Origin: Candidatus Palauibacter rhopaloidicola
GTDB taxonomy: Bacteria > Gemmatimonadota > Gemmatimonadetes > Palauibacterales > Palauibacteraceae
NCBI GenBank assembly: GCA_026914155.1
Contig: JAPPGH010000003.1
Location: 1-64,000 of the forward strand
DNA length: 64,000 bases
Direction of reading: 5' to 3'
Under the pieces are notes generated by a model that saw only the letters and a program-made list of their open reading frames with translations, did no database searches and was not told the origin of the DNA. The position numbers were made by a program, and so were the translations under genes. Position 1 is the first letter of the stretch; each line of letters opens with the position of its first letter. This document shows, piece by piece, positions 3,913-63,884 of this stretch.

Positions 3913-4300
3913 TCAAGTCCTTTTGTCGGCGACCCGGCCCGCGAGATACGCTTCCCAGTCGGCCATGAGCCGACGCCGGCGCTCGAACAGGTCCGTGCGG
4001 CGGTACGCGGCCTCGACCTTGCTCTTGACCACGTGCGCCAGCGCCGCCTCGACCACCTCCCGTGGATGATCCGTCTTCTCCGCCGCCCAGTCCCGGAACG
4101 ACGACCGGAACCCGTGCGGCACCGCCGCGATCCCGTGCTTCCTCAAGAGCCGGTTCAGTCGCTTCCCATCCAGCGCCCGCCCGCGCTCGTTCATGAACAC
4201 GACCGGATTCTTCCCATCGCCCAGCTTCCGCGCCGCCTTCAGAATCTCCAGCACCCGGCCGCAGAGCGGCACCCGCTGCTCCCGCTCCGGTCACGACCTT
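3913..4300 (-). pseudogene. 5'-truncated P4-type tyrosine integrase
   Basis: The C-terminal third of a phage P4-like tyrosine recombinase. Readable hallmarks are RVPLCGRVLEILKAA, the catalytic HxxR box HGFRSSFRDW, the second His in ALAHVV and the nucleophile region AYRRTDLFERRRRLM. The N-terminal DUF4102 domain, the core-binding domain and the first catalytic Arg are missing. An in-frame TGA just before the PEREQRVPL segment ends homology near 4300. It cannot be active. It marks a former integration event next to the two ankyrin genes. An attachment site or tRNA is not visible nearby. Confidence 0.85.
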
Positions 4301-4352
4301 GTTGAGCGTGGATCGCGGTTTGTCGATCCGACGAGGATGCGGCGTCGCCAGC

Positions 4353-4763
4353 CTACCGCACCGTCACCCCGCGCCCAGCCCGGTACGTCGTGTCCGGCTC
4401 AGCCCGTACATGGACCACCGTCTCGCCCGCAGACACGGCCCGGACTCTCGCGGTGCTGTCTCCCGTTGCGTAGACGCTCGCTACCGTCGGGTCCAACGTG
4501 GTCCAGACGAAACGATTACCCGGTGGCACCCCACAGCCCTCCTGTTGAACATCTGCGATGACCAACAGGAGATCCTGCGCAGCTCCGACCTCAAGAGCGA
4601 CACGCAATGTCAATGCGTCTAAACCGGGCACGCCAGGCAATACGATCTGCATGGGGTAACTAGAACATCCTCCGGCGAACACTGTATCCCCTCCGCAATT
4701 TACGCCGGCAGCGATCCCCAAGGCTACCGTCAGCGGTATCCGCCACCCAAGTCCTTTTCTCAT
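4353..4763 (-). CDS. Small secreted Ig-like protein
   Basis: 136 residues. It starts at ATG 4763 with a good RBS (GGAGG, six bases away). An N-terminal signal (MRKGLGWRIPLTVALGIAAG) precedes Cys-rich mature sequence. The C-terminal half (TLDPTVASVYATGDSTARVRAVSAGETVVHVRA, residues ~90-123) has the pattern of a bacterial Big2/Ig-like strand set. It is probably exported; whether Cys near residue 23 is lipidated is unclear because the lipobox is poor. It lies 15 bases after another small gene, likely in one transcript. No function can be assigned. Confidence 0.65.
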   Translation of the reverse strand: MRKGLGWRIPLTVALGIAAGVNCGGDTVFAGGCSSYPMQIVLPGVPGLDALTLRVALEVGAAQDLLLVIADVQQEGCGVPPGNRFVWTTLDPTVASVYATGDSTARVRAVSAGETVVHVRAEPDTTYRAGRGVTVR

Positions 4764-4778
4764 CGCTGCCTCCGTACA

Positions 4779-5125
4779 CTAGCGCCTGGGCATGGCGGCC
4801 CGCCCGCATCCGGTGCCCACGGAAATCTCCCAGGTCCTGCTCAGCTTCTCGTCGAAGTCGTTGGTGGCCGTGAGCCGCAGGAGCAAGGTGCACTCTTCGT
4901 CGTCGTCGATGGACCGCGTGTATCGGTCGTCGGTTCCCGCCGCCGACCACGCGTCGCCACCGTCCGTGCTGACCTCCCACTTGTCCGTGATCGAGTAGCC
5001 ACCCCACTCGATGATGACGATTACGGAGAAACCGGGTCTTGGTTCCCGGCTCGTATCGAGGCCATGCGCCAAGAACTCGCGGGGCTTAATCCGATCACGA
5101 TTCCAACCACGCAGTAAATCCTCAT
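4779..5125 (-). CDS. Small protein, probable frameshift
   Basis: The C-terminal ~85 residues (for example SITDKWEVSTDGGDAW, then SRTWEISVGTGCGRAA at the end) look like a real beta-rich secreted domain. That frame has no clean start. A second frame opens at ATG 5125 with a plausible short signal sequence (MRIYCVVGIVIGLSPASSW) and stops at 5021, where the other frame takes over. No RBS precedes 5125; an 11-base C-run (minus strand) sits directly before it. The simplest reading is one gene split by an indel, or one whose frame or expression changes with the homopolymer. Its function is unknown. Confidence 0.4.
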
Positions 5126-5129
5126 TCCC

Positions 5130-5140
5130 GGGGGGGGGGG
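5130..5140. repeat. 11-base G homopolymer
   Basis: An uninterrupted run of 11 G on the plus strand (C on the minus). It lies immediately upstream of the 5125 start codon and between two divergent small genes. Runs of this length slip during replication and are also a common place for sequencing error. It could alter the frame or promoter spacing of the neighbouring minus-strand gene. Confidence 0.9.
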
Positions 5141-5286
5141 AGCGGCGGTCTCGGATCCCTGGGGCATAATCCCCGCCTGCGAGACGTTTTCGTGGTGTGA
5201 AGATTGTCTGGAGTCTCGCGGCCACCCTTCCGGGTGAACGGGGGCGAAGCCGGACGAGAGATGGCGTAGCCGGGGGAGGATCAGCC

Positions 5287-5742
5287 ATGATTCGACGATG
5301 TGCCTTGACGCTCGCGGCAGCCGGCCTAGTGGTCGGCTGCGGTGGCCCGTTCCCATCCGAACCGCAGGGCGGTGAGATCGTCGGTGCGATCTACGGTGAC
5401 ATGGAAACGGTTGTCTCCGCACCGGACACGGTTCTTGTGGACCAGCCGTTCCCGGTATCGATTCGGACCTTCTTTGGTTGCAACGTGGAGCCTGGCCGAA
5501 CGAAAATCGAGACGACGCGGCTTCACGCGACGATCACACCGTACATGAACTGGCGGCACGGCTCGAATTGTCCGGATCGAGGGCTGGGGAAGGATCTTCG
5601 GCAGGTTTATGTCCGATTCGGTCATGCCGGAACAGGCGAGATCACGGTGATGGGGCTGGACCGGGTTTCGTGGCCTCGGCACGAGCCCCCGGGCAACACG
5701 GTTCGCGTCTACCGTACCGTTCGGGTAATGCACTCCAAGTGA
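5287..5742 (+). CDS. Hypothetical lipoprotein
   Basis: 151 residues. Start ATG 5287 is set by the RBS GGGGGAGGA six bases upstream. An N-terminal signal MIRRCALTLAAAGLVVGC gives a lipobox (VVGC), so the mature protein should be membrane anchored. The mature part has three further Cys and beta-rich sequence, with no family I recognise. The gene is divergent from the small minus-strand genes and converges on the acyl-CoA synthetase. Confidence 0.7.
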   Translation: MIRRCALTLAAAGLVVGCGGPFPSEPQGGEIVGAIYGDMETVVSAPDTVLVDQPFPVSIRTFFGCNVEPGRTKIETTRLHATITPYMNWRHGSNCPDRGLGKDLRQVYVRFGHAGTGEITVMGLDRVSWPRHEPPGNTVRVYRTVRVMHSK

Positions 5743-5967
5743 ATGTCTGGCACACCGGGGCATCTCAAGCCCGTGGCGATGCGCCCGTCGGTTACGTCCC
5801 GCTGCCGCCACCGAAGGCCAATGGAATCCGGTTCTTCCCGGCGGAAATATTGGTGGGAGCAATGCCGCCTATACGAAGGTAAATCGTGTATTGAAAGAGG
5901 TTTACGAACAAAACCCAAGCAGTCCGCGGGAACGTCTTCAGGTTCCGGAAGGGCTTTCAGGCGGCGG

Positions 5968-7590
5968 TCAGTTGATGCGCTTGTCGCGGCCGGTCCATTC
6001 GTGGTCGCGGAGGACGTATTTCTGGACCTTGCCGGTGGAGGTCTTCGGGAGGGAGCCGAACTCGATCGCGTCGGGGCACTTGAAGTGGGCGATGCGGTCG
6101 CGGCAGAAGTCGATGATCTCCGCCTCCGTGGCGTCGGCTTCCGGCTTCAGCGTGACGAAGGCCTTGGGGCGTTCGCCCCATTCGTCGTGGGGGATGGCGA
6201 TGACGGCGCACTCCAGCACGGCGGGGTGGCGGGCGACGGTCTGTTCGACCTCGATGGTGGAGATGTTCTCGCCGCCCGAGATGATGATGTCCTTGGCCCG
6301 GTCGCGGAGTTCCACGTAGCCGTCGGGATGCCACACTGCGAGGTCGCCCGAGTGGAACCAGCCGCCGCGGAAGGCCTCGTCGGTGGCCTCGGGCTGCGCG
6401 TAGTAGTCCTTCATGACGATGTTCCCGCGCATCACGACCTCTCCCATCGTCGCGCCGTCGCGCGGGACGTCCCTGCCCTCCTCGTCAACGACGCGCATGA
6501 GGTCGGAGGTGACGAATCCCTGGCCCTGGCGGGCGAGCAGCCGGGCCTGCTCGGCGGGCGGGCGTCCGTCCCAGTCCGCGTGCCAGGCGCAGGTGGCGGT
6601 GGGGCCGTACGTCTCGGTGAGACCGTACGCGTGGATCGGGTGGAAGTTCAGCGCCTTCAACTGTTCCAGCAGGGTCGGCGAGGGCGGGGCCCCCGCGATC
6701 ATCGTCCTCACCGTGTGCTCCAGCGGCCGGGCCGCCGGATCGTTCACGAGCATGATCTGCACGGTCGGCGCCCCGCAGTAGTGCGTGACGCCCTCCGACT
6801 CGATCAGCGCCCAGATGCGGCCGGGGTCGACCTCCCTCAGGCACACGTGCGTGCCGCCGACGGCGGTCACCGCCCACGTGAAGCACCACCCGTTGCAGTG
6901 GAACATGGGGAGGGTCCAGAGATAGACCGCGCCCGGCGTCATCTCCATCTCGATGAGTTCCCCGATCGCGTTCAGGTACGCGCCGCGGTGCGTGTACACG
7001 ACGCCCTTGGGACGGCCCGTCGTCCCCGACGTGTAGTTCATCGAGATCGGGGCTTCCTCGTCCGCGGGGCCGGCCGCGAGCGGGGGCGCCGCTTCGCTGC
7101 CGGCGAGGAACGCCTCGTAGGGATCGTTGGGCGCCCCGGTATCGTCGATCCGCACCACCGTGACCCCGTCGCCGCGCAGCGCGTCCCCGTCAACGAGGCT
7201 CTCGAGAGCCCGGTCGACGAACAGGTACCGCGCACCGCTGTGCTCCAGGATGTAGGCGATCTCGCCCGCCCCGAGCCGCGTGTTGATCGCGACCAGCACC
7301 CCGCCGGCGGCCGGCACGCCGTAGTGCGCTTCGAGCAGAGGCGGCGTATTCGGCGACAGGAAGGCCACCCGGTCCCCCGGCTCGAGCCCGGCCCGGAGCA
7401 GCCCCGTCGCCAGCCACCGCACCCGAAGCTCGAACTCGCGGTAGGAGTAGCTGCGGCCGCCGTGCACGACCGCCGCCTTGTCGGGGTACACGAACGCACT
7501 CCGCCGCAGGAATTCGAGCGGCGTGAGCTCGGTGCGGTAAGGGCTCCTCTCGCTCACTGAACGTCCCGCGGCGCGCCTGTCGGCCGCCAT
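5968..7590 (-). CDS. AMP-dependent acyl-CoA synthetase/ligase
   Basis: 540 residues, normal for the ANL superfamily. It activates a carboxylic acid as acyl-AMP and transfers it to CoA. Visible signatures in order are the P-loop YTSGTTGRPKG (~residues 187-197), the aromatic/adenine motif YGLTETYG (~320), the GWFHSGDL hinge region (~410) and the catalytic Lys in KTSTGKVQK near the C-terminus. The overall pattern (PMFHCNGWCF, ISGGENISTIEVE) fits the medium-chain or general fatty-acyl-CoA synthetase branch rather than acetyl-CoA synthetase. Substrate cannot be fixed from sequence. The gene starts seven bases after the stop of the upstream propeller lipoprotein, so the two are probably cotranscribed. 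It is cytoplasmic. Confidence 0.93.
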   Translation of the reverse strand: MAADRRAAGRSVSERSPYRTELTPLEFLRRSAFVYPDKAAVVHGGRSYSYREFELRVRWLATGLLRAGLEPGDRVAFLSPNTPPLLEAHYGVPAAGGVLVAINTRLGAGEIAYILEHSGARYLFVDRALESLVDGDALRGDGVTVVRIDDTGAPNDPYEAFLAGSEAAPPLAAGPADEEAPISMNYTSGTTGRPKGVVYTHRGAYLNAIGELIEMEMTPGAVYLWTLPMFHCNGWCFTWAVTAVGGTHVCLREVDPGRIWALIESEGVTHYCGAPTVQIMLVNDPAARPLEHTVRTMIAGAPPSPTLLEQLKALNFHPIHAYGLTETYGPTATCAWHADWDGRPPAEQARLLARQGQGFVTSDLMRVVDEEGRDVPRDGATMGEVVMRGNIVMKDYYAQPEATDEAFRGGWFHSGDLAVWHPDGYVELRDRAKDIIISGGENISTIEVEQTVARHPAVLECAVIAIPHDEWGERPKAFVTLKPEADATEAEIIDFCRDRIAHFKCPDAIEFGSLPKTSTGKVQKYVLRDHEWTGRDKRIN

Positions 7591-43200: not shown

Positions 43201-46200
43201 CCCCGGGCGGTCACGCTGCTGCCCGACGTCGTGGCGGTGGCCACGGATGCGTTGGAACTGGTGGCCGCATACGTCAGCGCGTCGCCATCGGGATCGCTGA
43301 AGTGGGGCGACACATCCACCGTCACCGAACTCCCGCCGTCGACGGTCTGAGCGTCGATCGTCCCCACGGCCGTCGGGGCCCGGTTGCCCTGCGGCGAATG
43401 GACCGTCACGCCGACGTCCTGCTCGGCGGTGAGACCGTCCGGGTCGCGTGCCGTCACCGTGACCGTCGCCGAGCCCTCCGCGACCGCCTCGATCGTCACG
43501 CGGCTGCCGGAAACGCTGACGGTCGCCACGCTCGCGTTCGACGTCGTGGCGGAGAAGGTCAGTCGATCGCCATCCGGGTCGCTGAAGTAGCTGAACGCCA
43601 GGAACCAGTAGGTCTCGCCCGGATCGAGCGTCTGGTCGGGGATCACGGCGGTCGACTCCGGCGGCCGGTTCGGCTGGATGACCTCGACGCGGGTGCGCTG
43701 CCGGGCTTCCTCTCCCTCCGGATCGCTCGCGGTGACGGTGATGGACGTGCTCCCGTCCTCCAACCCCTCGACCGTCATGACGGTGCCCGATACGGTGGCC
43801 GAGGCCACGTGGTCGAAGAACACCTCCGCGGTGTAGCTCAGCGGGTCCCCGTCCGCGTCCGTGAAATAGGGATGCAGGTCGACGGAGAACGTTTCGCCGA
43901 CGTTGAGCGTGCGGTCCGGAATCGTGCCGGTGTCCTCGGGACCGCTGTTGGGTACGGTCACGCCGAACGACTGCCGCGCCTCCAGCCCGCCGGGGTCGCG
44001 GGCCACGACGGTGATGCGCGCCGTGCCGCGGGCGACCCCGGTAATCACGACCCTCCGGTCCGAAATCGAGACCGTGGCCACCGCCGGATTCGACGTTTCC
44101 GCCAGGTAGGTCAGGTCATCCCGGTCCGGGTCGTCGAAGTAGAACCCGAGGAAGACGGTCTCGGTGTCGCCCAGTTGCACCGTCTCGTCGTCGATCGTGC
44201 CCGTGGCCTCCGGTGGCCGGTTCGGCTGGATGACGGTCAGATACGTCCGCTGGCTCACCTCCAGACCGTCGGGATCGCGCGCTGTCACGGTGATGGAGCT
44301 GCTTCCGCCCTGGAGTCCCTCCAGCGTCATGACGCTGCCCGACACGGTGACGCGGGCCCGGTCCTCCCAGAACGGTTCGGCGGCATAGGACAGCGCGTCG
44401 CCATCCGGGTCCGAGAAGTAGGGGGAAAGTTCCACGGCCGCCGTCTCTCCGACGTTCACCGTGTCCTGCGGGATGTCGGCGACCGCCACCGGGGCGCTGT
44501 TGGGAACCGTGGCCGTGAAGGACTGCCGGGCCTCCAGTCCCCCGGGATCCCGGGCCGTCACGGTGATCTCCGCCGTCCCCCTCGCGACACCTGCAACGCT
44601 CAGGCTGCTGCCCGAGACCGTCACGGTGGCGACCGCCTCATCCGACGTTACGGCGCCGTAGGTCAGCCGATCCCGATCCGGGTCGCCGAAATGGAAGAAC
44701 ATGGACACGCGAGACGTGCGTCCCGCGTCGACGGTGATGTCGGGGATGGCATCGGCGATCTCGGGGGGACGGTTGGGCTGGCGCACCCTGATGCGCGGCC
44801 GCTGCGACGCCCCGAGGCCTTCCGGATCGCGCGCCGTGATCGTCACGGACGTCGTCCCCTCGCTCAGCCCCTCGATCGTGAGGACGCTGCCCGACACCGT
44901 GGCTGCGGCGACGCTCGCGAAGAACGGCTCGGCCGTGTAGACGAGCGCGTCGCCGTCCGGGTCCGCGAAGTACTGCGAAAGGTCCACCGTAGCTCTGTCG
45001 CCGACATCGAGCGTATCGCCCGGAACGGCGGCCGTCTCGGAGGGAGCGTTGTTCGGCACGGTTACGGTGAAGCGCTGGCTGGCTTCGAGGTCTTGCGGAT
45101 CCCGCGCCGTCACCACGACCTCTGCCGCGCCGCGGGCGACCCCGGCCACCGTCGCGCGGCTGCCGTCGACCGTGACCATCGCGACGTCCGCGTCCGAGGT
45201 TGTCGCCGTGTACGTCAGCGGATCCCGATCATCGAAATAGGCCCCCAGATACACGCTCCTTGTCCCGGCCGCGGCGACGGTCAGATCGGGAATCGTGCCC
45301 CGGGGTTCGGGCGGCTGGTTGGGCAGGCGAACCGTCAGGCGAGTCCGCTGCGTCGCCTCTCCCCCGCCCGGATCGCTCGCGGTGACCGTGATGGAAGTGC
45401 TCCCCTCCGCCACCGCTTCCACCGTCATCGCGCTCCCGGTCACGGAGACTCGGGCCACACGGTCGTAGAAGGCGGTCGCCGCATAGGTCAGCGCGTCCCC
45501 ATCCGGATCGGAGAAGTACGCGGAGAGTTCCACCGTGCCCGTCTCCCCCACGTCGAGGGTGTCTTCCGGGATCTCGCCGACGGCGGCGGGAGGACCGTTC
45601 GCGACGTTGACGCCGAACGAAAGCGTCGCGGGGAGGTCCCCGGGATCTCGCGCCGTCAGATCCACCGTGGCGCGACCCTCGGACACGCCCGTGACCGAGA
45701 GGACGCTGCCCGAGACGGCGACGGTGCTCACGTCCGGGTTCGACGACCGGCCGGAGTAGGTGAGCCGGTCCCCGTCCGGATCGTAGAAGTATGACAACAC
45801 GTTAAAGGTGATCGTGACGCCGGCGGGGAGCGTCACGTCCGCAAACGGCAGTGTCCCTTCCGGGGCCCGGTTCGACCCTTCGGAGATCGTGACATCGACG
45901 TTCTGCGAGGCGGTCAGACCCGCCGGGTCACGCGCCGTCGCCGTCACCGTCGCGCTGCCCGCGGCGATACCCGCGATCGTCAGCGTCGAGCCCGACACCG
46001 TCGCCGTCGCCACGGAGACGTCCGAACTTTCCGCCGCGTAGGAGAGCGCGTCGCCGTCCGGATCGGCAAAGGACGACGATATGTCGAACGTCACGTCCCT
46101 TCCGGCCGTCAACCCCACCGGCGGGATCGAGCGAACCGCTTCCGGAGCCCGGTTCCCCCGCTCCACCGCGACGCCGACGTTCTGGACGGCGGTCAGGCCC

Positions 46201-46634
46201 GCCGGATCGCGCGCCGTCACGGTCACCGTCGCGGTTCCAGCGGACACTGCCGTAAGCGTAACCGTAGCGCCCGACGTAGAGGCCGTCGCCACCGAACCGT
46301 CGGAACTCTCCGCCGTGTAGGTCAGCGCGTCGCCATCGGGATCCCTGAAGTAGGACGACACGTCAAAGGACGCGCTCTCTCCAGCCGTCAGTCCCCGGGC
46401 CGGGATCGAGCCGACCGCCTCCGGTGCTCGGTTAGGCGTGGTCGGAGGCGGCGGGGGTGGAGTCACGGGGGGCTGGTCGGGCTCCGCCGGGCCGCCGCCA
46501 CCGTCGCCGCAGGCGGCGGCCCATACCAGGAGAAGCGAGGCCACGCCCCAGACGGCGCGGCGGCGGAAGCCTCGTCCCCGGGCGGTGGCGCTAGGACTTC
46601 GGCGGATCGGCGGCAGGCGTCGCCGGCAGCGCAC
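40236..46634 (-). CDS. Giant Ig-repeat lipoprotein with C-terminal leishmanolysin-like protease
   Basis: 2132 residues from GTG 46634. The signal ends LLLVWAAAC (lipid Cys ~42), followed by a Pro/Thr linker. Residues ~68-1828 are 19 Ig/cadherin-like repeats of ~93 residues. Residues ~1829-2132 form an M8 (leishmanolysin-type) metalloprotease: HEIGHTLGVGTAW at ~1950 (HExxH plus Gly), a third His candidate in DSHWRESYW (~2027) and a Met-turn ELMSPLN. In M8 enzymes these three His bind zinc. The architecture suggests a cell-surface stalk presenting a protease to neighbouring cells or host matrix, which is inference. Nucleotide usage matches neighbours. The stop lies five bases beyond the stop of the convergent DapB-like gene. 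Confidence 0.9.
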   Translation of the reverse strand: MRCRRRLPPIRRSPSATARGRGFRRRAVWGVASLLLVWAAACGDGGGGPAEPDQPPVTPPPPPPTTPNRAPEAVGSIPARGLTAGESASFDVSSYFRDPDGDALTYTAESSDGSVATASTSGATVTLTAVSAGTATVTVTARDPAGLTAVQNVGVAVERGNRAPEAVRSIPPVGLTAGRDVTFDISSSFADPDGDALSYAAESSDVSVATATVSGSTLTIAGIAAGSATVTATARDPAGLTASQNVDVTISEGSNRAPEGTLPFADVTLPAGVTITFNVLSYFYDPDGDRLTYSGRSSNPDVSTVAVSGSVLSVTGVSEGRATVDLTARDPGDLPATLSFGVNVANGPPAAVGEIPEDTLDVGETGTVELSAYFSDPDGDALTYAATAFYDRVARVSVTGSAMTVEAVAEGSTSITVTASDPGGGEATQRTRLTVRLPNQPPEPRGTIPDLTVAAAGTRSVYLGAYFDDRDPLTYTATTSDADVAMVTVDGSRATVAGVARGAAEVVVTARDPQDLEASQRFTVTVPNNAPSETAAVPGDTLDVGDRATVDLSQYFADPDGDALVYTAEPFFASVAAATVSGSVLTIEGLSEGTTSVTITARDPEGLGASQRPRIRVRQPNRPPEIADAIPDITVDAGRTSRVSMFFHFGDPDRDRLTYGAVTSDEAVATVTVSGSSLSVAGVARGTAEITVTARDPGGLEARQSFTATVPNSAPVAVADIPQDTVNVGETAAVELSPYFSDPDGDALSYAAEPFWEDRARVTVSGSVMTLEGLQGGSSSITVTARDPDGLEVSQRTYLTVIQPNRPPEATGTIDDETVQLGDTETVFLGFYFDDPDRDDLTYLAETSNPAVATVSISDRRVVITGVARGTARITVVARDPGGLEARQSFGVTVPNSGPEDTGTIPDRTLNVGETFSVDLHPYFTDADGDPLSYTAEVFFDHVASATVSGTVMTVEGLEDGSTSITVTASDPEGEEARQRTRVEVIQPNRPPESTAVIPDQTLDPGETYWFLAFSYFSDPDGDRLTFSATTSNASVATVSVSGSRVTIEAVAEGSATVTVTARDPDGLTAEQDVGVTVHSPQGNRAPTAVGTIDAQTVDGGSSVTVDVSPHFSDPDGDALTYAATSSNASVATATTSGSSVTARGVAGGTATITVTARDPGGLSARQRIRVTVPNRAPTGRAIPAQVVAADGTATLDLSSYFTDPDGDRLRYRGSSSDTGVATASVVGRSLTIRPVGSGTATITVTARDQGGLSASQDVAVTVQARANRPPSGSSIPAQTLTVGGTATLDLTAHFTDPDGDALTFAGSSNSPAVATAGVIGNTLTIRAVASGSATVTATTTDPGGLTASETIAVTVARPDNQPPAATGTIPAQTLNANESAAIQLSSYFDDPDADALTYAAAVSRTGVATASVSGSRVTVTGVARGTVTVTITARDLGGLEATQAFDVTVRNSAPEATGTIPAVTVVANASTTIDASSRFRDRDGDPLSYTAETSATAVASVAVSGSTVTITGVAAGTAVVTITARDPGGLEARQQADVTVRATNRAPEGVGSIPAQTIETGNSASVDVTSYFRDADDDVLTFAAASSDAAIATASVSGSVVAITAVSPGTATVTVTASDPHGAAVDQDIRVEVEQGNRPPQPSGTIPAQTVAAGEAVTLDVSSYFSDPDGDALTYAPTSSNTGVATASRLGSEVTISGQARGTTTVRVTASDADGASARQDIAVTVTARQDNRPPEALDDIPVHFLEAGASVEIAMSSYFGDPDGDALTYDPATSSAGVVTASASGGTLTVTAGTRGTATLTVTASDPDGLEAASSFTVAVMSADIGSYDIELISITPMVETHAAAFRNAAEKWMRVLADTELPDMPVPAGTPTGCWELTSDRRVESVDDLLLVVSVKEIDGPGGTLGSAGFCESRDQSLLPWMGAMRFDEADLRRVEEEGDLDELILHEIGHTLGVGTAWRQHQLLENPTLTWFLFTWVHSAGQDAHFTGPLATAAFNEAGGDAYTDGGKVPVENCLGRGSSDSHWRESYWSEDLPGSRCRGGEALLGGELMSPLNILGVREPLSRITIQSLADLGYAVDVGEAESYTLPDPDAARRYDPRRVLEYGDDILRGPITVRDRNGRIVRRIPN
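41151..46433 (-). repeat. Nineteen tandem Ig/cadherin-like coding repeats
   Basis: Each unit is about 279 bases. It reads NRxPE..G.IP..T...G....DLS.YF.DPDGDALTY.A.SS...VATA.VSG..LTI..V..G.ATVTVTARDP.GL.A.Q...VTV. Units 4-11 alternate between two subtypes: one with DTLDVGE…VEGLxEGSTSITV…QP, the other with TVxxG…VAGVARGTAEITV…TVP. That implies amplification of a two-domain block. The outer units are more uniform and look like single-unit duplications. Confidence 0.9.
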
Positions 46635-46690
46635 GCAACATCCGAATGGCTTTGGTCCTCCTCCTCGAACGTCGATTGGTGTTCGCGAGG

Positions 46691-47269
46691 CTACGGGATC
46701 CGTATACGGACCCCCAACTCCAGCCCGATATGTCCGTCGGGATTGAACCTCGGCAGGATAAGACTCAAGCGTCCCGGACGGTCGTCAAGTGGAATCGGTT
46801 CCCACTCCTCACGATGGATGAAGCTGCCCACAATGCCGCCGACAACGGCTCCGATCGGTGTTCCGACCACAATGATGATCGCGGCCACCGGTAAGCAAAA
46901 AATGGCGATAGCAACGGCGCCCGTCTCCGAGTCCGCCGCTTCCGCGCAGGTCGCGAGAATCCCGCCGCCAAGGGATAGTGGAATCGATGCACCAACCAGG
47001 ATCCCCTCCAGGCCGAGGCGCTTGGTGCCCGTGCTCCGGTCCAACTGTTCGATCGATTGGAATTCGAAGGAGAACAGCGTGCTGTCCCGCACGATCTCGA
47101 ACCCTTCTTCGCTGACGGCTGTAACCTGCCCAACGGCTGTGGAATCCGCGAGGAAAATGCGAACCCGATCACCGACATGCTGGGCTCGTACCGGGACCGC
47201 AGAGCCCATCGCCAACGCAATGATCGCCGATAACGTGATCCCGGAAACGGAACGGCAGACCCTCTTCAT
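46691..47269 (-). CDS. Exported protein with C-terminal hydrophobic hairpin
   Basis: 192 residues; GAAGAGGA precedes ATG 47269. A signal peptide (SAIIALAMGSAVPVRAQ) is followed by an SH3-like segment HVGDRVRIFLADSTAVGQV. Two hydrophobic stretches follow (AIAIFCLPVAAIIIVVG and TPIGAVVGGIVGSF), suggesting insertion in a membrane after export. The C-terminus (HIGLELGVRIRIP) ends like an outer-membrane strand. No family recognised. It is upstream of, and on the same strand as, the giant repeat gene, 56 bases apart. Confidence 0.7.
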   Translation of the reverse strand: MKRVCRSVSGITLSAIIALAMGSAVPVRAQHVGDRVRIFLADSTAVGQVTAVSEEGFEIVRDSTLFSFEFQSIEQLDRSTGTKRLGLEGILVGASIPLSLGGGILATCAEAADSETGAVAIAIFCLPVAAIIIVVGTPIGAVVGGIVGSFIHREEWEPIPLDDRPGRLSLILPRFNPDGHIGLELGVRIRIP

Positions 47270-47581
47270 GTCCTCTTCCCTTTCCTGGACTGTCGTGAAT
47301 CGTTGCAGTAGTAGAATCTGCTATTGAAATGCAGAACAAAGACAGAGGCGATATCTATGGCAACAGAGCAAGAACCGATAGAAAGTGATGATTTTCTTTG
47401 AGGTATAGCGCTCGGAGTCGGCGATTCCCCGGAACCGAGGCCGTGAACGTCTCGCGGTACGTGAAAAAGTCTGCGGGGCCGTTCTCGGAGCGTTCGCGGA
47501 GTCGCGGCCGGCGAGGGTTCCACAACGGACCGCCGGAGTCGTGTGACCGTTGCCGTGTCTGGGTCGTCTCAGTAGTCGTAG
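47270..47581. other. Intergenic region, no confident gene
   Basis: About 310 bases with lower GC near 47290-47400. The plus-strand open frame 47398-47787 is Arg-rich and looks like a shadow of the downstream frame. I see no RNA gene or clear terminator. Confidence 0.4.
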
Positions 47582-47926
47582 CCGGGCAGGCTGAGCAAGC
47601 CACCGCTGGGCGACGGGCCGTTACCAACCGGAACCTGCACAACGTCGGCCTTCGTGCCCTTCGTGGATGGGACCATGGCTGCTCTGTTCGGGGTCAGCGC
47701 TCTCGATTTCGCCCTGACGGATTACGAGGACGAGGATGCCCGGGATGGCCGTCCGTACGCCGTAGGGGCGGCGCTGGTGCTGGGTAGTGCGCTCGGCTTG
47801 TCCTCGTACCGGGGGTTCAAGTGGACGAGCGAATGCCGGGCTCGCCAGTCGATGAGCGAGGAGGCCATCGCCGACTATCTGCGCACCCTGTCACGCGAGG
47901 TGGCCGTGCACGACGATCCCGGATAG
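47582..47926 (+). pseudogene. Remnant of a small membrane/lipoprotein gene
   Basis: The frame is open from just after a TAG (47579-47581) to 47926. It reads PTGTCTTSAFVPFVDGTMAALFGVSALDFAL, then AVGAALVLGSALGLSSYRGF and TSECRARQSM. The first part resembles a lipoprotein mature N-terminus (Cys then hydroxylated residues), but no start codon, RBS or signal peptide precedes it. Only GTG 47654 could start translation, giving 90 residues without the Cys. It is probably 5'-truncated or decayed. The function is unknown. Confidence 0.45.
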
Positions 47927-47962
47927 TCGCGCCGGCGACCCGGCGTCGGGTCGTGACGGTCG

Positions 47963-48988
47963 TCAGCCTGCCGGGCGGTTGGCGACGATCGCGATTCGGG
48001 AGCCGTCGGGGCTCACGGCGAGGCGGGTGGTGCCCTCGACGCCGAGGTCCGAAAAGTCGGCGATCTCCGTCCAGTCCGAGCCCTCCGACCAGGCGAACAG
48101 CCGACCGCCATCTCCCATCAGGATCTCGCCCTCGGGCGTCCACGCGTAGTCCTCGCGACCGGGGATCGTGCGCACGATCCGCTCGCTGGTTCCGGCGGCC
48201 GGGTCGAGGCGCTCGATCCACCACTCCTCGTCCGAGACCTTCCGCACGAAGGAGATCTCCTCCGTCCCCGGAATCCGGTGGATGGACCGGCCGGGACGCT
48301 CGGCCACGATCCGGATCTCGCCCGTCAGCGCGTCCCCCACCTGAAGCGTGGGCGGACTGCCGAGGATGAACATCCCGACGACGTGTTCGTTGGCCCACGC
48401 GTGGTAACCCACCGGCTCGGCGGTGGCGAAGATCGGCCCGATCGATTCGCCGGAGAGGTCGTAGCGCCACAGGTACTGTTTCCCGCGGATCTCGTGGATC
48501 GCGGAGAAGGCGTCCTGCCCCGGGATCTGGAGCGCCGAGAACTCGCTCGCCTCCTCCGTGTGCGTCAACCGCTCGGAGGCGCCGGGCTCGGCCCCGGACG
48601 CCGCGGCGAGCCGCATGATCTCGGTCTGCCTGCGGTCCAGCGCCGCGGTGTGGAGGATCGCCGAACCGTCGAGCAGGAAGCTGGGCTGGTTGTCGTACGC
48701 GTCGCGGTCCGTCGCCCGTCCCAGGTCGGGGATCGACAGCGCGCCGCCTTCGCGGACGAGCGTCCCCAGCCAGATGTCGGTGGAGGGAGAGCCCGCCGCC
48801 GTCGGCGTGTAATCCGCGGGCGCCGGCCCGATCTCCGGCATCGGCCCGTCCGGCGGTTCCGCCGGGAAGGCGCCGGCCTCTTCAGAGCCGCCAACTTCAG
48901 GATCGGCCCCGTCTTCCGGTGCGCAAGCGATCCCGACCGAGAGCGCAAGCGCCAGTGTCGTCGCGGTTCGCAGGGTCATTCGTGCCAT
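47963..48988 (-). CDS. Beta-propeller lipoprotein
   Basis: 341 residues; AGGAGG five bases before ATG 48988 fixes the start. The signal MARMTLRTATTLALALSVGIAC is followed by the lipid Cys. The mature part has blade-like repeats (DNQPSFLLDGSAILHTA, TEEISFVRKVSDEEWWIERL, DYAWTPEGEILMGDGG, RLAVSPDGSRIAIVAN), like TolB/WD40-type PD40 propellers. It has no catalytic domain. It lies 47 bases downstream of the CocE esterase gene on the same strand, probably in one operon with it and the serine hydrolase. Confidence 0.82.
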   Translation of the reverse strand: MARMTLRTATTLALALSVGIACAPEDGADPEVGGSEEAGAFPAEPPDGPMPEIGPAPADYTPTAAGSPSTDIWLGTLVREGGALSIPDLGRATDRDAYDNQPSFLLDGSAILHTAALDRRQTEIMRLAAASGAEPGASERLTHTEEASEFSALQIPGQDAFSAIHEIRGKQYLWRYDLSGESIGPIFATAEPVGYHAWANEHVVGMFILGSPPTLQVGDALTGEIRIVAERPGRSIHRIPGTEEISFVRKVSDEEWWIERLDPAAGTSERIVRTIPGREDYAWTPEGEILMGDGGRLFAWSEGSDWTEIADFSDLGVEGTTRLAVSPDGSRIAIVANRPAG

Positions 48989-57980: not shown

Positions 57981-60773
57981 GTGGCGGCTTCAAAGACTCT
58001 CGTGAATCGCGGCAGCATCACGATGGGCCTCTCGCTCCTCGCGGTTCTGTCCTGCGGCGACTCCGCCACGGCTCCGGCCCCGCCACCTCCGCCCGTTCCT
58101 CCTCCCGTCCCCCGGCCGACGACCGTGTCCGTGAGCCCGGCCACGTCCGAGTTGACGGCGCTGGGCGAGACGGTCCAGCTGACGGCCGAAGTCCGCGACC
58201 AGGATGGGCGGACGATGACGGGAGCCGCCGTGACCTGGGCGAGCGACGCCGCGGCGGTGGCAACCGTGAACTCGACGGGGCTGGCGACGGCGGTGGCGAA
58301 CGGTACGGCGACGATCACCGCAACCGCGGGCGACGCGTCGGGAAGCACCTCGCTGACGGTGGCCCAAGCAGTCAGCGCGGTAGCTGTGATGTCGCCCGCC
58401 GACACGCTGGAGGTGGGAGACACACTGCGCCTGGTCGCCGCGGCGACGGACGCGAACGGACACGCCGTGGCGGAGGCGACGTTCGCATGGTCTTCGAGCG
58501 ACGCGTCGGTGGTCGACGTGGACGGGTCGGGGCTGGCCACGGCGGTCGCCGTGGGAACGGCGGTTGTGACGGCCACGTCGTCGGACGTGTCGGGGAGCGC
58601 GGAACTCGTGGTCATCCCGGCGGTCGGCGCGGTGACGGTGCAGCCGGACACGGTGCGGTTCACCGCTCTCGGCCAGTCGGCTCAGTTGTCTGCGGATGTT
58701 CGCGACCATGACGGGCGCGCGCTGCCGGGTGTGGCGGTGTCGTGGTCGAGCGCCGACGCCGCTGTGGCGGCGGTGGACTCGCTGGGACGGGTCAGGGCCG
58801 TGGGCGCCGGCGCGACCGTGGTGGCCGCCGCGGCGGGCAGGGCGGCGGGCGAGGCGGTCGTGACCGTGACGCAGTCGGCGCACCTGGTCGTGGTGTCGCC
58901 GGCGGCGGCGACGATCGCGCCGGGCGACACGCTGCGGCTTGCGGCGGAGGCGTTCGACGAAGACGGCCGCGCGGTCCTCGGGGCGGGGTTCGGCTGGTCG
59001 TCAGGGGACCGTTCGGTGGCGACGGTCGATCCATCGGGTCTCGTGCGTGGTGTCGACGCGGGCACGGCCACGATCACGGCTACGGCGGGAGACGCGCGCG
59101 GAACCGCGCAGCTCACGGTCGCGAACTCGGACCGGGCGACGCTGGAGGCGTTCTACCGCGCGACAAACGGACCGAACTGGGTCGACAGCGAGAACTGGCT
59201 CACGGATGCCCCGCTCGACGACTGGTATGGCGTCGACACGGATGGAGAAGGGCGGGTTGTACGGATTGTTCTTGAAGGCACGGTCGATTCCGCTGGCGCG
59301 AGGCGCACGCCGCACGGCCTGACCGGCTCGATCCCCCCGCAACTGACTCGACTCATGAGCCTTACCGAGCTGAGCCTCCGGCTGAACGAACTCACGGGAC
59401 CGATCCCGCCGGAACTCGGAGACCTCATCCACCTTGGGGGATTGGACCTGCACGGAAACGCACTGGCCGGCTCGATTCCCCCGGAACTTGGAAACCTGTC
59501 CCGTCTGAGGCGGCTGTCGCTTTCCAGCAACAACCTGACGGGCCCGATCCCGGCGGTGCTGGGCCGCCTGTCGGAACTGGGAGAGCTGTACCTCTACCAC
59601 AACGATCTTGAAGGCCCGATCCCGACCGAACTCGGGAACCTGTCCGGCATGGAGCAGCTGTACCTCTACGGAAACGACCTTGAGGGTCCGGTCCCACCCG
59701 GACTCGGAAACCTGTCCCGCCTGGAGCAACTGCGCCTTGACCGCAACGACCTCGAAGGCCCCATTCCGCACGGCTTGCTGCAACTCGCCGATCTGGTGCG
59801 GCTCGACTTCCGGCGGAACGACGGTCTCTGCGCCCCGGGCACCGCCCCATTCGCGGCGTGGCTTCAGGGCATCGAGGAAGGCGAAGGGCCTTTCTGCAAC
59901 CACGCCGACCGCGAAGCGCTCGAGGACCTCCATGAGAGCGCGGCCGGCTCCGGATGGCGGGACTCCGACGGCTGGCTCGCGACCCAGGTGTTGGCAGACT
60001 GGCACGGGGTCACGGCCGATTCCCTAGGCCGAGTGACGGGACTCGATCTCACCGACAACGGTCTCACGGGCAGACTTCCCGTTTCTCTGCGCGACCTGGG
60101 CGAGATGACCCACCTGCGGATCGGCGACAATGAGCTTTCGGGCCGACTGCCGCTGGACTTCGCCGCGCTCCCGCTGGTCGAGTTCCACTATGCGGGCACG
60201 CTGCTTTGCGTCCCCGACGACGACACCTTCCTGAGCTGGCTGACCGGCATTCCGACGCACGAGGGAACCGGGGCGGCGTGCGACGGTCTCTCGGACCGGG
60301 ACATCCTCGAAGTTCTCTACGAAGCAACCGGTGGCCAGAACTGGCGCAACCACGACGGCTGGCTGACGGACGCACCGTTGGATGCCTGGTACGGCGTCGA
60401 TGCCGACCGTAGCGGCCACGTGAGTCAGCTGTCGCTGGCATATAACGGTCTTGCGGGCAGGATCCCGCCGGAACTCGGCAAACTTCAGCAGCCCTTCGGG
60501 TTGAGCCTCCACGGGAACGCCCTCACGGGGCCCATCCCGCCGGAGCTCGGAGACCTCTCCCGTCTGAGGTGGCTGTACCTTTCCGCCAACGACCTCACGG
60601 GGCCGATCCCGCCGGAACTCGGCAGCCTGCCCCTACTGGAGTGGCTTTCCCTTAACCACAACAATCTCGAGGGGCCGATCCCCGCGGAACTCGGAAACAG
60701 CCACCGCCTCCAGCGGCTGTATCTCTACGAGAACCGTCTCCGGGGGCCGATTCCGCCCGAACTAGTAGAATAA
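57981..60773 (+). CDS. Big2-domain and leucine-rich-repeat lipoprotein
   Basis: 930 residues from GTG 57981 (AAGGG seven bases upstream). The signal ends LLAVLSC (lipid Cys ~25), followed by a Pro-rich linker. Residues ~45-390 form four Big2-type Ig-like domains (AAVTWASDAAAVATVNSTGLATAVANGTATI and similar). Residues ~390-930 carry bacterial LRRs of plant-like type (LxGPIPPELGNLSRLRRL), in two blocks, each opening with a RATLEAFYRATNGPNW-like lead. The last residues PIPPELVE stop halfway through an LRR unit with no cap, at the point where base composition turns AT-rich. The 3' end was probably lost or replaced. Surface-exposed binding role inferred. Confidence 0.88.
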   Translation: MAASKTLVNRGSITMGLSLLAVLSCGDSATAPAPPPPPVPPPVPRPTTVSVSPATSELTALGETVQLTAEVRDQDGRTMTGAAVTWASDAAAVATVNSTGLATAVANGTATITATAGDASGSTSLTVAQAVSAVAVMSPADTLEVGDTLRLVAAATDANGHAVAEATFAWSSSDASVVDVDGSGLATAVAVGTAVVTATSSDVSGSAELVVIPAVGAVTVQPDTVRFTALGQSAQLSADVRDHDGRALPGVAVSWSSADAAVAAVDSLGRVRAVGAGATVVAAAAGRAAGEAVVTVTQSAHLVVVSPAAATIAPGDTLRLAAEAFDEDGRAVLGAGFGWSSGDRSVATVDPSGLVRGVDAGTATITATAGDARGTAQLTVANSDRATLEAFYRATNGPNWVDSENWLTDAPLDDWYGVDTDGEGRVVRIVLEGTVDSAGARRTPHGLTGSIPPQLTRLMSLTELSLRLNELTGPIPPELGDLIHLGGLDLHGNALAGSIPPELGNLSRLRRLSLSSNNLTGPIPAVLGRLSELGELYLYHNDLEGPIPTELGNLSGMEQLYLYGNDLEGPVPPGLGNLSRLEQLRLDRNDLEGPIPHGLLQLADLVRLDFRRNDGLCAPGTAPFAAWLQGIEEGEGPFCNHADREALEDLHESAAGSGWRDSDGWLATQVLADWHGVTADSLGRVTGLDLTDNGLTGRLPVSLRDLGEMTHLRIGDNELSGRLPLDFAALPLVEFHYAGTLLCVPDDDTFLSWLTGIPTHEGTGAACDGLSDRDILEVLYEATGGQNWRNHDGWLTDAPLDAWYGVDADRSGHVSQLSLAYNGLAGRIPPELGKLQQPFGLSLHGNALTGPIPPELGDLSRLRWLYLSANDLTGPIPPELGSLPLLEWLSLNHNNLEGPIPAELGNSHRLQRLYLYENRLRGPIPPELVE

Positions 60774-61341
60774 ATGATAGGTCATGTAATATCAACGTGT
60801 TAGTAATTCTGATCGAGCGCATGTATCACTTCACGTATACAGACATGAGCGAGAGCTTACGCGACGGTATCGGAAGTCCGTAGACACCCAAGCGTGTCAA
60901 GCCGCGAATAAAGGTCGAACCCACGGTCCGACCGAACGGTTGCCCGCAGAGGGGTTGCGAGCAAACCTACGGAAGCCGAGCGGCGCGTGGCCTCTTGACT
61001 GACCAGCCTGGCACCCAGCCCTACGGGCGAGTGAGATCGGCGCGCGCCCGTCCGGTCTCTGTTTGCTATCTCCGATTGCGCCAACTTGGCCATCCAGGCC
61101 CATCACGCCTGCTCGCGCAGTTGCGTCGTCACTCACCCTGCCCCCCCTCGCCGCCGTTCGAGCGATCCACTGATCCCCTCCGCCAACCTCCGAAGCCGGG
61201 GCAGCGCGGATGTCGGGGCACCGAGCCTCGGCGCGAACCTCGTCCGTTGCTCGTGGGACGATAGGGGCGACCCTTGGGAATGCCACCCTACGGAGGACAC
61301 ATCCGTTCGCTGGCCGCAATCGGTTGGGTTAGATTGCCACC
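60774..61341. other. AT-shifted intergenic segment, no gene seen
   Basis: 568 bases. The first ~100 are markedly AT-rich compared with everything upstream and contain no gene. The minus-strand open frame 60897-61319 has no recognisable protein pattern and no RBS. I see no tRNA, att repeat or transposase remnant, although the segment sits exactly between a truncated gene and a probable acquired operon. TAGATT (61330-61335) ends six bases before ATG 61342, with TTCGCT 18 bases further upstream. This is a weak candidate for a leaderless promoter. Confidence 0.5.
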
Positions 61342-62892
61342 ATGCCACCTCTCGCGCTCAAGCCGGATTCCAGCTTCTTTCGGAAGATTGCCCTCGGCGC
61401 GGTGGGCAGCAGACACGTGGCGCACGATCTGGAACGGCTGGGCCACCAAGTCGTCGAGCTCGAACGCGGCGCGATGGACACGAAGCTCTGGAAGGATGTC
61501 AAGCGCAAGCGCGTCCGCATTCCAGACCTCGTTTGTGAACTGTGCGGACTTCGCATCGAGAGCCGTGCGAAGGCGAGGCCCGACTTGTCGATGTCCCATA
61601 GCTCCTCGGACCATGAGCGCGCGTGGGACTTCGGTATGGTGAACGCCGACGTAATCGCCTTCCCGGTCTGCAAGGCAGGCGAAGATGAACAGTGGAGCGC
61701 CGGTCGGCTTCAGGAATCGGTCTCCTACTGGCACGAACGCAACTGGATCCGGTGGCATGCTGAAGGCACGGTAAACTACGTGCGCGTCGCTCGGTTCAGG
61801 GCCGTGTCGCGGGACGGTGAGACGACCAAGGGCGTTACCGAAGGATCGGAGACCAGCGTCACATGGAAGGCGTGGTTCTCCAGCCGAGACGGCTTTGTAG
61901 AATCGGTCACGGGTCAGAGGATCACGACTGTTCGAGCTAGCGACGGACATCGTTACACTCGGACGGTTCCCGAAGAGCTCCGAATCACCGTGGCCGTGGG
62001 CGAGGAAATCGCGCTCAATCAGATCCTCGCGTCGAGAGTCAGGCCGGAGACCGATGACGACCTTCGCTGCCCCGGTGTTTGGCCCGAGGGCCACCTTTCG
62101 CAGCTTCTGGCGTCCCGTGAGCGGACTCAACGGTTCACCGGGGTGAAGCTCGCGAGGCTCCGACGGAAGGATTCCGTTTGGGCGACCGTTGCGAGTCTCG
62201 AGCGCGATCGTGAAGAGGACATGTACATCCGGTTGGAGGCAGCAGCGTATCTTGTCGCTGTCCGTGGCGAGAGTGCAGAGCACCTCTTCGCACCGTACTT
62301 GGCGAGTCCCGACCAGCAGATCCGACTGGAGGCGGTCATTTCGTTGGGGGAAGCTGGCACCGATGAGTGCGTGAGGATGCTGAGCGCCATCCTCGACGAT
62401 CATCAGCGCCCGTACTTCGCGCGTAGCGCGGCGGCTTGGTCGTTGAGCCGCATCGGCGGTTTGGAAGCGTGCTCACGCCTAGTGAGGGCGTTTGCGGATG
62501 TGGACCAAGACCTCCGTGAGGAGGCCCTTGAGGGCATCGTCACCCTGGACTCAGACGCTGTACCGGTACTTCTTGCAGGGTTGCAAGAAATGGAGCCGGC
62601 GATCGCGGCGGGGTGTGCCGAGGCGCTGCGCCAGCACGGCGCGGTGTCAGACGAGACCCTCCGAGAGCTCACGGCACAGCTTGCCAGTGGTAACCCCTCC
62701 GTATGGGCCGTTTGGTTGGTCGGTCACCTGCCTAGAGAACCGCTGGCGGGTGCGGTGGCGGATCTTCAAGAAACGGCACCGGAACTCCACTACGCGATTA
62801 CGCTGCTTTGGTCGTTCGTCGAGAGCTGGATAGCGCGGCGGTGGGAACTGCAGCCGGATGCGAACCTCCCCGATAGGAATGATGGACGATGA
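61342..62892 (+). CDS. HEAT-repeat protein with nuclease-like N-terminus (candidate restriction endonuclease)
   Basis: 516 residues. Residues ~15-110 look like a restriction-nuclease fold: an alpha helix HVAHDLERLGHQVVEL, then RIPDLVCELCGLRIESRAKA with Pro-Asp at 61-62, Glu 73, Lys 77 and a CxxC, then a strand VNADVIAFPVC. The PD…ExxxK spacing is close to but not the canonical PD-(D/E)XK. Residues ~130-265 are beta-rich. Residues ~270-500 are HEAT-like helical pairs (MYIRLEAAAYLVAVRGE, QIRLEAVISLGEAGTDE, ARSAAAWSLSRIGG, LREEALEGIVTLDSD). No Shine-Dalgarno; codon usage is less GC-biased than in neighbours. The stop overlaps the methyltransferase start as ATGA. Restriction function is inferred from this pairing. 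Confidence 0.75.
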   Translation: MPPLALKPDSSFFRKIALGAVGSRHVAHDLERLGHQVVELERGAMDTKLWKDVKRKRVRIPDLVCELCGLRIESRAKARPDLSMSHSSSDHERAWDFGMVNADVIAFPVCKAGEDEQWSAGRLQESVSYWHERNWIRWHAEGTVNYVRVARFRAVSRDGETTKGVTEGSETSVTWKAWFSSRDGFVESVTGQRITTVRASDGHRYTRTVPEELRITVAVGEEIALNQILASRVRPETDDDLRCPGVWPEGHLSQLLASRERTQRFTGVKLARLRRKDSVWATVASLERDREEDMYIRLEAAAYLVAVRGESAEHLFAPYLASPDQQIRLEAVISLGEAGTDECVRMLSAILDDHQRPYFARSAAAWSLSRIGGLEACSRLVRAFADVDQDLREEALEGIVTLDSDAVPVLLAGLQEMEPAIAAGCAEALRQHGAVSDETLRELTAQLASGNPSVWAVWLVGHLPREPLAGAVADLQETAPELHYAITLLWSFVESWIARRWELQPDANLPDRNDGR

Positions 62893-63884
62893 AGCTGGAC
62901 CTGCCGAGCGACAAGCAGGTGTATCGTACGCCTCGCGGTCTCCAGCTGTGGGGGGATAGCGCGGAGCTGCTTGGACATCTGCCGGAACAATCGGTGGACC
63001 TGGTCATGACCAGCCCTCCCTTCGCGCTGTTGCGGCAGAAGGCCTACGGTAACGAGGAGCAGGACAAGTACGTCGAATGGCTGGGGAAGTTCGGAGAGGC
63101 TGCGTTCCGCGTGCTGAAGGACAGTGGCAGCTTCGTTCTCGACCTCGGCGGAGCCTACAAGCGCGGCAAACCCGTGCGTTCGCTCTACAACTACCGCGTG
63201 TTGCTGGACTTCTGTGATCGCCTCGGCTACGAGTTGGCGGAAGAGTTTTTCTGGTTCAATCCGTCGAAGCTGCCCTCGCCCATTGAATGGGTCAACAAGC
63301 GGAAGATCCGAGCCAAGGACTCGGTCAACACGGTTTGGTGGTTTTCCCGAACGGCTGAGCCAAAGGCGGATGTCACTCGCGTCCTAGTGCCGTATTCCGA
63401 GCGTATGAAGGCGCTGCTCAAAAACCCCGAGAAATTTTACCGACCCCAATCGCGACCCTCCGGACACGACATCGCCAAGACGTTCGGCAAGGACAACGGC
63501 GGTGCCATTCCCTCGAACCTCCTGCAGATTCCGAACACGGAAAGCAACTCGGGCTACCTGCGGCGGTGCAAGATGATGGGGCGAGACAGACACCCTGCGA
63601 GGTTCCCCAGCGCGCTGCCACGGTTCTTCATTCAATTCCTCACCGACCCGGAAGACCTAGTCTTGGATATCTTCTCTGGGTCCAACACCACGGGCCACGT
63701 CGCGGAGGAACTCGGTCGTCGGTGGATCAGCATGGAACTCAACCGTGACTACGCGGCCCTATCGGCCGTACGCTTCATGGATGGCTGGAGTGACGACGAG
63801 GTGCGTGAAGCGATTAAGCGCCTCGATGCCGGTGAGGTCGTCGAGCTCTACCTCGGGTTGTTGCTTCATGGAATCCCGGGATGA
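62889..63884 (+). CDS. DNA methyltransferase, beta class (probable N4-cytosine)
   Basis: 331 residues. Motif IV TSPPF (41-45) precedes motif I LDIFSGSNTTG (259-269), the beta-class order. (S)PP(F/Y) after a Ser/Thr suggests N4-methylcytosine, though N6-adenine cannot be excluded. HPARFPSALPRFFIQFL (~235-251) is the family's conserved motif X-type segment, and RRWISMELNRDY is motif II. ATG 62889 overlaps the upstream stop as ATGA, so it is coupled to the HEAT protein. The central target-recognition stretch (~120-220) is unlike enzymes I can recall, so the site recognised is unknown. GC content is visibly lower than in the rest of the window. Confidence 0.92.
   Translation: MKLDLPSDKQVYRTPRGLQLWGDSAELLGHLPEQSVDLVMTSPPFALLRQKAYGNEEQDKYVEWLGKFGEAAFRVLKDSGSFVLDLGGAYKRGKPVRSLYNYRVLLDFCDRLGYELAEEFFWFNPSKLPSPIEWVNKRKIRAKDSVNTVWWFSRTAEPKADVTRVLVPYSERMKALLKNPEKFYRPQSRPSGHDIAKTFGKDNGGAIPSNLLQIPNTESNSGYLRRCKMMGRDRHPARFPSALPRFFIQFLTDPEDLVLDIFSGSNTTGHVAEELGRRWISMELNRDYAALSAVRFMDGWSDDEVREAIKRLDAGEVVELYLGLLLHGIPG

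Follow-up and report, generated by a model that had tools for sequence, protein, structure and literature searches.

Two overlapping genes, here called A and M, close the 64,000-nucleotide stretch of Candidatus Palauibacter rhopaloidicola DNA analysed here (the window; contig JAPPGH010000003.1, positions 1 to 64,000), and they probably form a mobile two-gene type II restriction-modification (R-M) system in which A, a protein with a predicted PD-(D/E)XK core and a HEAT solenoid, would be the cognate endonuclease, with CAGCTG as its site. The type of the methyltransferase M is known; the unfamiliar component appears to be its HEAT-repeat partner A, a type of protein without a counterpart in the libraries searched. 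If this reading is correct, the restriction enzyme next to a methylase whose specificity is known has been swapped for one that looks unrelated, and the known endonucleases gain a solenoid-based member whose site can be guessed beforehand, which makes the proposal directly testable. The genes lie on the same (+) strand and overlap by ATGA, as judged by open reading frame (ORF) coordinates; overlap, coordinates and reading frames are as given in an earlier note made from the sequence of this DNA. The contig ends at 64163, just beyond M, and the host genome assembly comprises 4.1 Mb in 63 contigs. The features of the locus are as follows (aa, amino acids; dN/dS, ratio of nonsynonymous to synonymous substitution rates).

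61342..62892, + strand: gene A, presumed restriction endonuclease, 516 aa (ORF; homologues; dN/dS 0.06-0.21)
62889..63884, + strand: gene M, PvuII-type N4-cytosine DNA methyltransferase, 331 aa (1boo; PADLOC MTase_II; 59.7% to the pPvu1 enzyme)
61304..61341, + strand: upstream strip moving with the A-M pair, 38 bp (start of similarity across loci with different flanks)
61498..61572, + strand: A residues 53-77, densest invariant block (19 of 25 invariant, 7 diverse sequences)
61822..62181, + strand: A residues 161-280, middle region (invariant columns in the alignment; no family match)
62194..62850, + strand: A residues 285-503, HEAT solenoid (Pfam; PDB alpha-Rep matches; model helices)
63009..63023, + strand: M residues 41-45, TSPPF, motif IV (invariant in 10 aligned copies)
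63666..63695, + strand: M residues 260-269, DIFSGSNTTG, motif I (invariant in 10 aligned copies; DIFGGSNTTG at this place in 1boo)

M and the place of its partner

M belongs to the PvuII-type N4-cytosine methyltransferases. It matches the Pfam methylase family PF01555 (E 9.4e-40), the PADLOC model MTase_II PDLC03323 (E 2e-150) and, over residues 9-320, M.PvuII itself (PDB 1boo, E=1.9e-128), and it is 59.7% identical to the methylase of Proteus vulgaris pPvu1; the likeness to M.PvuII extends along the entire alignment and takes in the sequence between the motifs. In its own genome M is the only strong match to the MTase_II model (1.5e-149), the other four being at 2.7e-7 or weaker. TSPPF and DIFSGSNTTG, which we take to be catalytic motif IV and the S-adenosylmethionine-binding motif I, respectively, stand in an order, with motif I after motif IV, that is that of the beta class. 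What the earlier note called a beta-class methyltransferase is a PF01555 methylase, and can be assigned more exactly to the M.PvuII type. Because M resembles M.PvuII over the whole aligned length, its target is likely to be CAGCTG.

The relatives of M on plasmids show which gene is to be expected at its side. A plasmid search with M was followed through the best 25 of 45 matching records, ten among those listed being at least 59% identical to M; eight records were opened, among them five of these ten (Apilactobacillus, Aeromonas, Acinetobacter, Gluconobacter and Proteus pPvu1). All five (59.7-65.2% identity) have a PvuII endonuclease gene nearby, annotated as PvuII on pPvu1 and matching PF09225 in the other four, and none has A. 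Since R.PvuII is found there in five relatives of M, A stands in the place expected of the endonuclease: the slot of R.PvuII in the opened relatives is taken here by A. The proposed system shares with the PvuII R-M system a similar methylase and the role proposed for it, and differs from it in layout: on pPvu1 the restriction gene and a helix-turn-helix regulator gene are divergent from the methylase gene, whereas A is upstream of M, overlaps it and runs in the same direction. A itself has no match to PF09225 (Endonuc-PvuII) in Pfam, the rest of the genome not having been searched for this family. No C-protein regulator gene lies inside the shared unit, whose two genes overlap and whose similarity begins just 38 bp ahead of A; the search for one was confined to this unit.

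Other PvuII-type methylases have a different neighbour. On plasmids of Thiothrix and Roseivivax, methylases 53.1% and 54.5% identical to M lie beside a gene for a protein with MTaX1 and HNH_2 domains (Pfam) that lacks HEAT repeats, and for an Ensifer methylase (50.7%) no nuclease partner is evident directly beside the methylase in the annotation shown. On the Roseivivax plasmid (L086:1063-4549) the methylase sits between an Mrr-like gene and the MTaX1-HNH gene, a further combination of partners for methylases of this type.

Distribution and movement of the pair

A pattern scan covering some 85,000 species genomes returned 11 loci, whose titles name Gemmatimonadota/Gemmatimonadetes/Palauibacter, Acidobacteria (Bryobacterales, Vicinamibacteria), Cyanobacteria/Synechococcus and, once, 'Gammaproteobacteria'; this last title (G317) is probably outdated, as contig number, coordinates and score are those of the Gemmatimonadota genome G301, which is of the genus of G058. 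By record title the A-M unit is present in three phyla, and several of the records appear from their titles to come from sponges and corals; restriction modification is reported to be enriched in sponge metagenomes (PMC5099237). With the centre genome counted in each case, A was found in 5 of 298 genomes of its own phylum and in 4 of 297 in the phylum of the Bryobacterales genome, the same 4 returning among 396 in a larger overlapping draw; the family of G449 gave the same three relatives among 10 genomes. In the class of the Vicinamibacteria genome the count was 3 of 193, one being the broken copy L009 and one, a weak match in G1024, being dropped as antisense to another ORF.

Searches with the whole A protein are dominated by the HEAT repeats, and full-length matches were counted apart. 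Among 100 genomes of relatives, 22 matched whole A and 4 did so at full length, own genome included; in the cyanobacterial phylum 274 of 339 matched, and, of the matches listed, that of G323 alone was full length; none of the others begins before residue 222. Relatives of the N-terminus of A were found neither on plasmids (where two matches were to HEAT repeats only) nor in phages nor in the viral contigs searched.

Wherever A is intact and its downstream side is visible, M follows it directly on the same strand, overlapping A or within about 20 bases of it (14 of 14 copies: the window, L001-L008, L010, L038, L040, L057 and L058). These copies are partly dependent, since L001 and L038 are from one genus and share a 3.4-kb stretch with the window. 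Homologues of A lying mostly without a methyltransferase neighbour, which the earlier note had named as evidence against its proposal, are not what is found. The most distant pairs (L057, L058 and L059) are at 41-51% identity by matched segment; in L100, at 45% identity, and in L011 the contig ends before the position of M.

Three copies are damaged. In L009 A is frameshifted and also lacks residues 325-478, and M is intact; in L011 A stops after 139 residues, has changes at residues 73 and 75 and runs to the contig end; in L059 A is frameshifted and M residues 1-138 have no match. Where these residues of M would be expected, L059:4344-6988 holds a MerR-resolvase gene and a TnpB-like ORF (TnpB, IS607-like by eye). 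The L011 copy (L011:8001-8572) is a second, decayed A in a Synechococcus metagenome-assembled genome (MAG; SB0668), where an intact pair (L008) is present as well.

Nucleotide similarity to the window begins at 61305 in L004 and one base earlier, at 61304, in L002, L003 (L039 is the same locus), L007 and L040; for these last four its other end falls anywhere from about 80 bp short of the M stop codon to 25 bp past it. The flanks of these loci differ, and the DNA they share is the two genes with 38 bp upstream. Because similarity between differently flanked loci stops at these borders, the moving unit is essentially A, M and the short upstream strip. L001 and L038 have 3.4 kb in common with the window at 98%, and L038 belongs to the class of the window genome but to another family. 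Recent acquisition, suggested in the earlier note from composition and a truncated neighbour, has its better evidence in nearly identical copies from another family and in similarity ending at the gene borders. The last two 2-kb windows of the stretch have a GC content of 63.3% and 61.2%, against 68-72% in most others, and because further 2-kb windows are also low (4001-6000, 63.3%; 46001-48000, 65.1%; 1-2000, 65.6%), composition alone is weak evidence that the pair was acquired. For single loci, mis-binning of MAG contigs is possible. The upstream strip carries TTAGATT a few bases before the ATG of A in 10 of 16 upstream stretches, the motif not being present in L006, L008 (TAGATT only), L009, L057, L058 and L100; by eye the strip is promoter-like and may give a leaderless transcript, and a consensus promoter scan of it was empty.

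A as a candidate nuclease

A is under purifying selection in three regions (dN/dS 0.06-0.21 against six homologues), and the solenoid (0.08-0.14) is about as constrained as the N-terminus (0.06-0.14). The long HEAT-like C-terminus read from the sequence in the earlier note is confirmed by HEAT_2 (1.6e-15, best stretch 319-398) and HEAT_PBS in Pfam, by designed alpha-Rep proteins in the PDB that match residues 289-450, and by a run of helices in the C-terminal half of the full-length AlphaFold model. The PADLOC profile HEAT-ARM_XIII resembles A in these repeats, the match (22 bits; model positions 876-1041 of 1972) being confined to them. The middle region ends in a conserved SRERTxRFTGxKLA.

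The densest conservation lies near the N-terminus. In the block of residues 53-77, VKRKRVRIPDLVCELCGLRIESRAK, 19 of 25 residues are invariant among seven diverse sequences, one of which stops at residue 430, beyond which conservation is not comparable. P61, D62, C65, C68, E73, R75, A76 and K77, which include the Pro-Asp, CxxC, Glu and Lys pointed out in the earlier note, are invariant in a 9-row alignment of residues 1-160 in which some relatives are 52-58% identical. The resulting motif, D62-x2-C65-x2-C68-x4-E73-x-R75-x-K77, has the spacing of the catalytic site of DpnI (PDB 4esj, 4kyw; IPDLVCELCGLRIESRAK in A, VADFYCNHCSEEFELKSK in DpnI, the DpnI sequence used here having been matched to 4esj): counted from the Asp, both proteins have Cys at +3 and +6, Glu at +11, a basic residue at +13 and Lys at +15, the residue at +13 being Lys in DpnI and Arg in A. 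In DpnI the metal is bound by Asp53 and Glu64 and Lys66 is catalytic (PMC4117772). We presume that D62, E73 and R75 or K77 form the active site of A and that C65 and C68 form a knuckle. Residues 73 and 75 are those that differ in the decayed copy L011.

Two tests bear on the likeness to DpnI. The pattern D-x2-C-x2-C-x4-E-x-[KR] occurs solely in A copies and the DpnI homologue among 430,457 residues searched, a set made up of open frames of at least 100 codons from 106 loci and the window in which A relatives are over-represented and which does not stand for a random proteome; this shows that the pattern is rare and is no proof of homology between A and DpnI. A profile alignment of A with DpnI fell on precisely this motif and scored 21.0 against a mean of 12.96 (standard deviation 2.42) for column shuffles, 2 of 300 of which scored as high; the reversed DpnI profile gave 10.4 and an R.PvuII profile 12.5 against the A profile, and the A-DpnI score may be inflated by the conserved cysteines. 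Family searches with A do not reach DpnI. Searches for DpnI on plasmids and in phages yielded one usable kind, from two Neisseria records, and no DpnI relatives were found in viral contigs.

In the R-M system that we propose, M would methylate N4 of a cytosine in CAGCTG and so protect host DNA, and A would cut unmethylated invading DNA at unmarked sites. The two carboxylates D62 and E73 would make up the metal centre of A, with R75 or K77 activating water, and the Cys-x2-Cys knuckle between Asp62 and Glu73, placed as in DpnI, may stabilise the hairpin. The HEAT solenoid would most likely hold or position the DNA or a second subunit, replacing the compact body of R.PvuII; gating by a phage or by the state of the DNA is possible. 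No helicase domain or translocating motor was found in A or M by the Pfam scan.

Several results weigh against this proposal. Residues 1-280 of A match no Pfam family, the nearest being five families with E 0.029-0.33 that were hit by one or two members out of nine, and no PDB sequence better than E 0.6; residues 1-160 have no PADLOC match, a best PHROGs value of 0.046 and, among 23 PDB chains listed by phmmer and profile searches, a transposase at 0.56 as the best. Arg75 at the position of the catalytic Lys departs from the PD-(D/E)XK motif, and the second, upstream CxxC of DpnI (C34, C37) has no counterpart in A. In hhalign, just the motif stretch aligned with DpnI (score 21.1, probability 2.2%), and the A alignment matched five R.PvuII-type proteins over one column only. 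The AlphaFold models have low confidence, with a predicted local distance difference test (pLDDT) value of 43 for full-length A, low at the N-terminus, and of 37.8 for residues 1-160. Avoidance of CAGCTG does not separate carriers from non-carriers in the two genera compared, and the counts are uninformative: densities in the genus are about 127, 112 and 108 sites per Mb for its three carriers (ranks 2, 3 and 7 of 17) and about 99 to 323 for 14 non-carriers, and those in genus g27 are about 235 for the carrier G058 and about 379, 192 and 276 for three others. In the genome of the window itself there are 523 CAGCTG sites against 3050 of the reversed word, an unmatched control, and in the 64-kb window 6 against 10.4 expected. 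In favour of the proposal, the one broken M (L059) goes with a broken A, and a wrecked A (L009) goes with an intact M, the pattern that an A toxic in the absence of M should leave; this argument has a single locus of each kind behind it.

Candidate matches behind these values were set aside. The PHROGs match at 0.046 is an HNH family hit by 2 of 9 members and was treated as chance; after the transposase, the PDB matches are mostly to RNA polymerase beta' chains, at 0.63 and above, in the part that holds the Cys residues, and were unusable. An HNH nuclease is less likely for A, in which a single His, H86, is invariant downstream of the knuckle and a second invariant CxxC is lacking.

The full-length model places a helix at 24-32, a strand at 37-39, an extra helix at 47-56, strands at 63-65 and 71-73, a helix at 90-96 and a strand at 105-111, an order compatible with a PD-(D/E)XK core save for the extra helix; the 160-residue model has strand residues at 71-72 only and no helix at 90-96. 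Because the pLDDT is low and the two models differ, these modelled elements carry little weight as support for the fold. The claim of a nuclease-like N-terminal segment in the earlier note is sustained insofar as the most conserved block is a PD..E-x-R-x-K motif; the nuclease fold itself is putative.

Three other readings of A deserve consideration. In the first, A would be a nuclease beyond plain type II, its solenoid sensing a phage component or a DNA state and gating cleavage while M serves as a self-marker. HEAT repeats are protein-binding scaffolds, a paper on the phage-sensing protein DSR2 uses 'HEAT repeat' 11 times, and the constraint on the solenoid is about that on the N-terminus; however, only two genes are common to the different contexts, an ordinary type II endonuclease occupies the place of A in the opened plasmid relatives of M, and no sensor family was matched, HEAT-ARM_XIII covering repeats only. 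We consider this reading unlikely. Hardly better placed is the bolder idea of a new architectural class of restriction enzyme, with a zinc-knuckle PD-(D/E)XK core and an E-x-R-x-K active site under the control of a HEAT solenoid that would respond to a phage signal, to the oligomeric state or to the conformation of the DNA; cleavage would then be conditional and the methylase an ordinary PvuII type. It, too, seems improbable.

A second reading makes A a non-nuclease DNA-binding partner or regulator of M, acting for example on where or when M methylates, with M as an epigenetic methylase. The want of a nuclease family in the profile searches, the Arg in place of the canonical Lys and the lack of a confident fold speak for this reading, but the most conserved block holds metal-ligand-like Asp and Glu at nuclease spacing, an endonuclease lies beside the opened plasmid relatives of M at 59.7-65.2% identity, and M persists beside the wrecked A of L009; we give it a little less credence still. 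That A is a DpnI-like modification-dependent nuclease cutting foreign-methylated DNA, with M merely travelling along, is suggested by the local motif and is very improbable, since one methylase type adjoins A in all 14 intact visible copies, a methyl-dependent cutter would gain nothing obvious from M and would be dangerous if it read the mark of M, and no DpnI-type winged helix was matched in A by the Pfam scan. DpnI has a winged-helix C-terminus and specificity for methylated DNA (PMC4117772), whereas the C-terminus of A is made of HEAT repeats; what PMC11037411 says of winged-helix nucleases brought nothing further.

As to novelty, no HEAT-repeat type II endonuclease is named in the titles and abstract openings of the open-licence papers listed, and REBASE, where A may already be annotated, was outside this search; the words HEAT and solenoid are absent from the searched text of the review PMC4081073. 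The earlier note had put the pair forward as the best candidate for an undescribed restriction or defence system: the conserved two-gene unit is borne out, and, with M of the known PvuII type, what may be undescribed is reduced to its partner A.

Genes near the pair

Upstream of the pair, a 930-aa ORF at 57981-60773 encodes leucine-rich-like repeats (LTGPIPPELG) and, by eye, Ig-like repeats; sequence partly similar (64-76%) to this region also flanks the pair in L010 and L038. In L038, from the other family, the pair has a relaxase gene on one side and a phage-type integrase gene on the other (L038:5167-12080), which suggests an integrative mobile element. An AbiEii-like AAA protein is encoded near the pair in L010. 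A ResIII/DEAD helicase gene lies near the pair at L039:3111-6011, and a 967-aa ORF at L004:5093-7996 apparently encodes the same protein, judging by its first residues; this protein of roughly 966 aa, of which the L039 copy was scanned for domains, is possibly a further defence gene.

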